A stretch of DNA of 64,000 nucleotides, from NCBI GenBank assembly GCA_036504445.1, contig DASXVE010000009.1:1-64000 (forward strand), written 5' to 3'. This stretch comes from Candidatus Aquicultor sp. (GTDB taxonomy: Bacteria; Actinomycetota; Aquicultoria; Aquicultorales; Aquicultoraceae). Of the stretch, positions 6,865-29,918 are shown piece after piece (position 1 is the first letter of the stretch; each line of letters starts with the position of its first letter). The notes beneath the pieces are model-generated. The model saw nothing but the letters and a program-made list of their open reading frames with translations, was not told the DNA's origin and did not search any database. The translations under genes and the position numbers were made by a program.

Positions 6865-6959
6865 GGGGACAATGGTGCTGGTGCACTCCACGGGCTGCAA
6901 ACCCGTCGGCTGTCCGTAGAAAGGTCGGAGGAGGGTTCGATTCCCCCTTGCCCCCTCCA
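6865..6959 (+). tRNA. tRNA with anticodon GCA (Cys) but tRNA-Sec-like architecture
   Basis: The 95-nt cloverleaf has an 8-position acceptor stem (6865-6872 with 6948-6955; one A-C mismatch at position 5) and a D arm with GTGC/GCAC and a 4-nt TGGT loop. The 5-bp anticodon stem has loop CTGCAAA, giving anticodon GCA at 6897-6899. A 24-nt variable arm includes a TCCG/CGGA stem. The T arm has loop TTCGATT and five stem positions (one A-C mismatch). The discriminator is U at 6956, followed by an encoded CCA. The 8+5 acceptor/T layout, 4-nt D loop and long extra arm are tRNA-Sec features; GCA and U73 are cysteine identity elements. It could be a minor cysteine tRNA or a recoded selenocysteine tRNA. 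Confidence 0.75.
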
Positions 6960-18937: not shown

Positions 18938-19930
18938 CTACGGGATGCCGATGCAGCCGCCGAAACTAAATGCGTAGAGGCGGATGCCGGGGGGCAGGTT
19001 TGTGAGTTTCAAAGTTCCCGTTACGAATTCATCGGCCCTAAAGAGGTTGTACATGCGAGGCTCGACAATAGTTGCCGTTGAGCCTGAAACATCGTTGCCA
19101 CGGTTGGCGTCGTTAAGCGGCTCATCGTTAAAATTGACATCAAAGCTAAGCGGCCCGTTTGCCGACGTCATAACCAAATTAACGGAAACCGCTTCAATCG
19201 GTAACACCAGATAGTCCTCAGGGTTCATACCGCTGTGTTCCAGATATTGACGATCGGCTCGCCAGCGCCCCTGCAGATATATCCCCGGCTTATCGTAGCG
19301 GCCGGGCTGCGGGTCTTCATAAGTAAAATCCTCCATAGCACGCAGATCGCCCGGATTGTTTGTATAACCTCGAGAATAACCGCAGTATGTCTCGGGGGTC
19401 GGCATGCTGCAGATAGCTTGAGGATCGCCATCGACCGGTATCGAGGATAGATCGAGCTCGGGGTTAACGTGGTTTAAAAGCTGCCGGATCATGAGCTCTG
19501 TTTCGTGATAGCCACCCTCTCCAATGTGGTCGAAGTAGATTTTTCCATTTAAGACGATATACTTGCGGGGCCAATATGCATTGGCGTATGCGTGCCATAT
19601 CTTAAAATGGTTATCCAGCACGACCGGGTACTTGATCCCGTAGCGCTCAATCGCCCAGCGAACATTATCCGGGTCGCGTTCGAAGTCGAATTCCGGCGAA
19701 TGAACCCCGATGATTGTAAGTCCTTTGTCGCTGTACTTATTATGCCAATCTACCAGATATGGCGCTACGCGGATGCAGTTGATTCAGCTATATGTCCAAA
19801 AATCCACGATAAAAACGCGGTTTGGCGTGCCGCGGATACTGATGGGCGGCGAATTAAGCCACATGTCCCCACCTGCTAATTCCGGAGCCGATAATCCGAC
19901 TGATTGGCGAAATATCTCACGAAAGCTCAT
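18938..19930 (-). CDS. Thioredoxin-like selenoprotein (UxxC; DipZ/AhpC-TSA-like)
   Basis: Two frames separated only by one TGA (19786-19784) form a single 330-residue protein. Before it reads GTPNRVFIVDFWTYS, after it INCIRVAPYLVDWHNKYSDK then GLTIIGVHSPEFDFERD. Homologues of the thioredoxin-like DipZ group have WTYSCINC here, so the UGA takes the place of the first active-site cysteine (Sec49, Cys52). A bacterial-type SECIS hairpin follows. The C-terminal part (NVNPELDLSS..., LYAFSFGGCIG) is the extra beta domain seen in this group. The start is set at ATG 19930; GTG 19999 is possible. It should act as a thiol-disulfide or peroxide reductase. Confidence 0.85.
19744..19763 (-). promoter_or_regulatory. 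SECIS element for the thioredoxin-like selenoprotein
   Basis: Reading the minus strand, 20 bases after the UGA lie GCCA, an unpaired U (19759), AUCU, the loop GGU (19754-19752), AGAU and UGGC. This gives eight base pairs with one bulged U on the 5' side and a GGU loop. The bulged U and the loop G-U are the two SelB recognition features of the E. coli fdhF SECIS. The distance from UGA to loop (29 nt) is within the bacterial range. Confidence 0.75.
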
Positions 19931-28303: not shown

Positions 28304-28337
28304 AAAACCCGCTGAAAACAGCGGGTTTTTGTTTTTT
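28304..28337 (+). terminator. Terminator after the TPR gene
   Basis: AAAACCCGCTG / CAGCGGGTTTTT with a four-base loop and a long T-run. Confidence 0.9.
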
Positions 28338-28407
28338 AAAGAACCGATTTTGGAGATATACATGGTAAGGACGAGTTTTCTGGTGTTGTAGCTAAATGGG
28401 AGGACTT

Positions 28408-29088
28408 ATGGTATTTAGCGACGAACAGAGACGGGAGATAACCGAGCTTCTAAGCGAGAATCTTGAACAAGACGTGCGCTTTGTCTATTTTACGCAGGAT
28501 CAGCCGAGCATCGAACTGCCCGTCCAGGTTGAAGTAACCCCGTGTGAATACTGCGAAGAAACCGAAGAGATGCTGCGCGAGCTTACTGCGTTATCGGACA
28601 GACTAAGCCTTGAGGTCTTTGATTTTATCAAAGACAAGGACAAGGCCGATCAGTACGGCATAATCGAAGTACCGGGTATTGCTATTATCGGCGACAGGGA
28701 CTACGGCATACGATATTATGGCATTCCGTCGGGTTATGAGTTTTCGGCACTCCTGGATGCGGTTATGCACGTTTCAAAACGGCATACCAATCTAGCCGAC
28801 GATACGAAGCAAGCACTGCAGAATCTTGACGAGCCGGTAAACATGAAAGTCTTTGTTACCCCGACCTGACCGTATTGCCCGAGAGCGGTCAGTTTGGCTT
28901 ACCAAATGGCGATGGAAAGTGACAAAGTTACCGTAGAAACCGTAGAAACAGCAGAGTTTCCCCACCTGGCACAGCGGTACTCGGTCGCGGCGGTTCCAAA
29001 AACTGTAATTAACGATCACGTATACGTCGAAGGTGCCGTTCCCGAAACAGCACTTGTCGAGGAGCTAAAACACGCAGCCGGGTTTTAG
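28408..29088 (+). CDS. Protein disulfide oxidoreductase selenoprotein (glutaredoxin-like, UPYC)
   Basis: Two frames joined by one TGA (28867-28869) form a 226-residue protein with two thioredoxin-fold units, as in PDO proteins of anaerobes. The first active site is CEYC (Cys46, Cys49). The second is TPT-U-PYCP, where relatives have TPTCPYCP; Sec154 thus replaces the attacking cysteine. After the UGA the frame stays open for 73 codons with a normal C-terminal unit (VETAEFPHLAQRYSVAAVPK then TVINDHVYVEGAVPE). Hairpins follow the UGA (TTTGG/CCAAA at 28893-28906) but the SECIS is less clear than in the other selenoprotein. The start ATG 28408 is preceded by GGGAGG. Confidence 0.82.
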
Positions 29089-29219: not shown

Positions 29220-29918
29220 ATGCCGGACGGAACAGATCCTGTCGTTGATATAACACCACTCATGCCGGAGGGCATGCAAGATGCTATCCCTGTCTTTATC
29301 GACGCGATAGAGACCATGCACAAGCTTACCGTGCCGTTTGTTGTTGTTGGCGGTATCGCTATGTTGGAATATGGACGCACCCGGATCACGAAAGATCTGG
29401 ACCTTCTTGTTTACAAACAAGACGCGATTCGGCTTCTCGACATATTGCCGCAATACGGTTACCGCACTCAGCGCACTGATGATAATTGGGTGTATCATGC
29501 CTTCAAGGGTGGCCAAATCATCGATTTGCTCTTTGCACTCGGCAAAGGGTTTTTAGGCAACACGGAAGGGGTTATTCTAAACGACGAGGTTCTAGCCCGC
29601 GGCCGGTTGGTAAGCTTGGGAGGCGCGGTCTTTCCCGTTATGTCACCGGAAGATATCATCCACTCCAAGTTGTTGGTCTCGTGGAAAGCCACCAGGCAGG
29701 AAGACTTCCAAGATGTCCTTCTCATTTTACGGAACGCCAAACAACCGGATTGGGATTACCTGCTCGACAAAATATCGCGCTATCCGGTGCGGACGCTTGC
29801 AATGTTCAGCTATGCGGCATCCTGCCAAATAACGGAGGATTCAATTCCAATAGAGCTTACGACTGAAGTCGAAAACTTGAGCAGACGACTTTTTCAGTGG
29901 ATGGGGCGGGCGGCGTAG
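29220..29918 (+). CDS. Nucleotidyltransferase-fold protein (AbiEii/MNT-like)
   Basis: The 232-residue protein has the nucleotidyltransferase core VPFVVVGGIAMLEYGR then RITKDLDLLV, giving the G-G and D-x-D elements of the fold. A third acidic strand is QIIDLLFALG. Members without a clear partner are often toxin-like or orphan MNT proteins. The start ATG has GAAAGGAG. Its last 62 bases overlap the convergent exonuclease gene on the other strand. Substrate and role are unknown. Confidence 0.72.
   Translation: MPDGTDPVVDITPLMPEGMQDAIPVFIDAIETMHKLTVPFVVVGGIAMLEYGRTRITKDLDLLVYKQDAIRLLDILPQYGYRTQRTDDNWVYHAFKGGQIIDLLFALGKGFLGNTEGVILNDEVLARGRLVSLGGAVFPVMSPEDIIHSKLLVSWKATRQEDFQDVLLILRNAKQPDWDYLLDKISRYPVRTLAMFSYAASCQITEDSIPIELTTEVENLSRRLFQWMGRAA

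Follow-up and report, generated by a model that had tools for sequence, protein, structure and literature searches.

A selenoprotein with a UxxC motif that matches the NCBIfam model TIGR02187 has been tabulated as a "homolog of AhpF N-terminal domain", a Grx-like domain protein exemplified by ABB15282.1 (PMC9312934, PMC13188914). Its listing goes back to Zhang et al. 2006 (PMC1794560), and it has been reported from Asgard archaea too. The gene described here lies in the window, a stretch of 64,000 nucleotides from Candidatus Aquicultor sp. It shares with the ABB15282.1-type selenoprotein both the model and the UxxC motif, but it comes from a different lineage, the Aquicultor-related Actinomycetota, and ABB15282.1 itself is outside the tree of at least two changes described below. 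The selenoprotein family is already described, and the gene adds to it a conserved lineage of uncultured Actinomycetota; a literature search on Aquicultor selenoproteins found no published work. The closest solved structure by sequence is the archaeal protein disulfide oxidoreductase (PDO) 1a8l, which is similar over nearly its full length. Its CPYC aligns with the UPYC of the window protein and the CxxC of the first site is conserved, the difference being that the second site of 1a8l has Cys where the window protein would have Sec. Judged by such similarity to solved PDOs, the fold of the predicted product is clear. Weaker matches to TIGR03140, TIGR03143 and a solved AhpF recall the AhpF N-terminal domain; however, in contrast to AhpF, the window protein has no flavoprotein domain, and it scores far under the cut-offs of both models.

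Translation of the frame gives a single gene with a 226-residue product and one internal stop only (Table 1). The frame begins with MVFSDEQ, passes through TPCEYC and VFVTPT to the internal TGA, resumes with PYCPRAVSL and ends with HAAGF before a TAG. The antisense frame is interrupted by several stops, and there is no long open frame on the reverse strand. The ATG at 28408 is a likelier start than the in-frame ATG at 28396, since a GGAGG just precedes it; the terminator-like hairpin further upstream is weak evidence alone, as shuffled versions of that region average 0.9 such calls. Once the TGA is taken as Sec, TIGR02187 (the protein disulfide oxidoreductase model; NCBI short name PDO_seleno_TRX) matches the product over positions 2-208 of its 209. 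The product has two thioredoxin-like units with one CxxC-type site apiece, CEYC at 46-49 and UPYC at 154-157, both in invariant columns. An earlier note, made from the DNA letters of this locus, had claimed that the TGA replaces the cysteine of the second active site of a two-domain PDO, that the first site keeps CEYC, and that a well-conserved frame continues past the TGA. All of this was borne out by the family match, by the alignments and by the 72 codons that precede the TAG. We consider it highly probable that the gene encodes a two-domain PDO with the C-terminal active site Sec-Pro-Tyr-Cys.

Table 1. Features of the predicted Sec-PDO gene and of other loci in the window
Feature	Coordinates	Strand	Supporting observation
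CDS, predicted Sec-containing protein disulfide oxidoreductase, 226 aa, TAG stop	28408..29088	+	TIGR02187 260.9 bits (cut-off 185); 1a8l E 6e-48
TGA codon 154 (predicted Sec), position 1 of second active site U154-P-Y-C157	28867..28869	+	TGA in 12 genomes; Cys in 78 of best 80 named homologues
First active site C46-E-Y-C49	28543..28554	+	C46, C49 invariant (alignment of 11)
GGAGG, likely ribosome-binding site for ATG 28408	28399..28403	+	read from sequence
Intrinsic-terminator-like hairpin between upstream TPR gene and PDO gene	28304..28329	+	11-pair stem and T-run
Codons 157-164, frozen synonymous codons in seven same-family genes	28876..28899	+	0.74 observed vs 0.28 expected, top of 218 windows
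Putative SECIS hairpin(s), two alternatives	28887..28910	+	100% pairing in seven genes for both
selC*-like tRNACys	6865..6959	+	RF01852, 50.7 bits
Redoxin-like protein gene, WTYSUINC	18938..19930	-	TGA at 19784..19786
Nucleotidyltransferase-like gene (PF14907)	29220..29918	+	follows Sec-PDO gene in 6/7 same-family genomes

The internal TGA is conserved well beyond this one contig. A homologue survey covered 396 genomes of the same phylum (Actinomycetota); there, each of the seven same-family genes (the query and six others, five genera) has exactly one TGA, always at the same codon. The homologues are 65-73% identical to the window protein, conservation extends over both sides of the TGA, and the 72 codons downstream are conserved as well as those upstream. 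Outside this family, the homologous codon is a TGA followed by P-H-C in five genomes from families f48, f52 and f53, which brings the total to 12 genes in 12 genomes of four families. On the strength of this recurrence, both in the same-family genomes and in the five others, the TGA is neither a sequencing error nor a chance reading frame. Cysteine takes the same place in related proteins, as CPYC in one relative (L028) and as CPNC in two (L029, L031), and the comparison with PDO homologues proposed in the earlier note gave, among the best 80 from named genomes, Cys in 78 and TGA in two, including Candidatus Aquicultor secundus, whose protein is identical to that of G072. Two PDO relatives with predicted Sec, from the f53 genomes G111 and G320, have lost both first-site cysteines and keep only the second site, as UPHC.

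These data bear on the reading of the TGA as a true stop, which would make the locus a pseudogene or two separate single-domain proteins. Translation with table 11 does end the ORF at residue 153, and standard annotation would truncate the gene or label it a pseudogene. However, a single TGA at the codon of the catalytic Cys is fixed in seven genomes of five genera with conserved flanks on both sides, and in a decaying gene one would expect further lesions, not 72 downstream codons conserved like the upstream part. The two-gene arrangement, which the earlier note had named as a finding that would tell against selenocysteine, was looked for in the best 80 homologues; 78 of these are single continuous proteins with Cys, and the other two have TGA. 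Both the pseudogene and the two-gene readings were therefore rejected on conserved flanks and continuous homologues; we regard a true stop as extremely improbable.

The genome encodes the complete machinery expected for selenocysteine. The genes selD, selA and selB and a tRNASec(UCA) stand in a row in one cluster (contig C25:100324-105046), and its selD carries a TGA of its own, in SGUAAK. An active Sec system, as suggested in the earlier note, is predicted from gene content, and the lack of SelB or SelA that the same note had set against its reading was not encountered. If UGA coded genome-wide for a standard amino acid, for example Trp, the open frame would be accounted for and nothing else. 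UGA still terminates 5 of the 26 long ORFs of the window, which excludes a wholesale change; moreover, the TGA falls on a catalytic Cys in the alignment, and tRNASec(UCA) and SelB are present. Such reassignment was rejected as well, its probability being practically negligible. Of the 12 TGA-bearing genomes, 11 have a SelB that scores over its family cut-off. The exception, G083, yielded neither a SelB over the cut-off nor a tRNASec in a 97% complete assembly, which reflects either an assembly gap or a recent loss.

Another possibility is that a selC*-like tRNACys, brought in by SelB, reads the UGA as cysteine and yields an ordinary CPYC protein. A precedent exists in delta-proteobacterial selC* tRNACys, partly with a UCA anticodon and accompanied by a second SelB, for which opal reading has been proposed (review, PMC7609411), and a tRNACys of tRNASec-like architecture is present in the same genome. 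However, each of the four genomes examined has GCA, not UCA, as the anticodon of this selC*-like tRNA, the genome of the window has one full SelB only, beside selA, selD and tRNASec(UCA), and three genomes with the TGA gene (G072, G105 and G191) lack such a tRNA at the threshold used. Reading as cysteine is accordingly very improbable. Although this tRNA scores as a tRNASec (Table 1), it has the GCA anticodon and U73. Similar genes occur in G035, G126 and G324 (L069, L073 and L070). In G324 the tRNA is followed directly by a second SelB-like gene of full length (633 aa), in an arrangement that resembles the selC*-selB* pairs of the review (PMC7609411); the genome of the window has one SelB only. 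The selC* class is listed from Firmicutes, Thermodesulfobacteria, Nitrospirae and Proteobacteria (PMC7609411), and a selC*-like tRNACys in Actinomycetota would extend this range.

The best evidence for a cis-acting element of the SECIS type is a freeze of synonymous codons seen in the Sec genes only. At codons 157-164 of the seven same-family genes, 74% of the comparisons of synonymous codons show identity, where codon use predicts 28%. Among 218 windows ranked by synonymous identity, the top eight all begin at codons 155-162; for example, every one of the seven genes has AGT for Ser162 and TTG for Leu163. Cys homologues of similar divergence (402 pairs) have no peak at codons 157-164, with 45% observed and 37% expected.

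The fold of this putative element is less clear. RNAalifold prefers the hairpin GYCA(G)UUUGG-CYUA-YCARAUGGC at 28888-28910, or +21..+43 with the T of the TGA as 0; a shorter alternative, GGYCA-GUU-UGGCY at 28887-28899 (+20..+32), contains one base pair in which both partners have changed. The two pairings are mutually exclusive and fit about equally, with minimal covariation in seven close genes. In a folding-energy test against synonymous-codon controls the mean z was -0.6, and there was no significant difference from the Cys genes. As far as could be tested, the earlier view that a hairpin of non-canonical type follows the UGA holds: the loops of the candidates at +20..+43 are GUU or CYUA, none is GGU, and the putative PDO element appears neither to be a textbook GGU-loop hairpin nor to be stabler than chance.

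A second selenoprotein gene in the 64 kb, which had also been noted earlier, was found at 19.8 kb on the minus strand. It encodes a redoxin-like protein with the motif WTYSUINC and a Thioredoxin_10 C-terminal domain, and the hairpin 3' of its UGA, GCCA(U)AUCU-GGU-AGAUUGGC at +23..+42, has the GGU loop and bulged U of a textbook bacterial SECIS. The earlier note had proposed to fold the post-UGA region of the PDO gene and compare it with this SECIS, and the likeness proved partial: the hairpin at +21..+43 agrees with it in the lower stem, the position of the bulge and the distance from the UGA, but it lacks the GGU loop and its energy is not unusual. A loop without GGU is not unprecedented, since some known selenoprotein genes depart from the consensus SECIS model (review, PMC9312934). 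Frozen synonymous codons without a textbook hairpin provide a clean test case for what a bacterial SelB must see.

In a maximum-likelihood tree of 60 rows, the seven same-family Sec genes form one clade (support 100/100). It lies within Cys genes, of which many come from Chloroflexota, and is separate from the other Sec genes. The tree requires at least two Sec/Cys changes, which is a lower bound only, the Cys rows having been chosen for their similarity to the query. The gene adds a well-supported Sec-PDO lineage and indicates repeated Sec/Cys exchange inside one enzyme family. In the second Actinomycetota clade (f48, f52), three sequences share a hairpin at +16..+33 in which two pairs are compensated; as 37 to 55 of 500 shuffles do equally well, this is suggestive only. 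A more ambitious proposal is that the SelB of this lineage reads two kinds of element, a variant PDO SECIS without the GGU loop and the GGU type, and that the PDO family acquired Sec on two or more occasions, with a separate hairpin design on each. We offer this combination as a speculation that is rather unlikely to hold in full.

SelB-dependent insertion of Sec at codon 154 fits all the sequence evidence, and it forms part of the Sec-PDO explanation that we hold to be highly probable. During translation, an RNA element in the approximately 45 nt after the UGA would recruit SelB carrying Sec-tRNASec(UCA), and selenocysteine would be inserted in place of termination. In the established chemistry of PDOs and thioredoxins, the N-terminal position of an active site is the nucleophilic one. 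The selenolate would then be the attacking nucleophile of the second site, Cys157 would resolve the mixed selenenylsulfide, and the N-terminal CEYC site may pass on or receive electrons. A thioredoxin reductase-like enzyme is a likely electron source, since two related Cys proteins carry a pyridine nucleotide-disulfide reductase domain fused in front of them; a tblastn search for thioredoxin reductase found none in the window.

The conserved neighbours, a TPR gene upstream and a nucleotidyltransferase-like gene downstream, give no functional hint. The latter, a PF14907 gene, comes after the Sec-PDO gene, with 71-77% identity, wherever the contig of a same-family genome reaches far enough.
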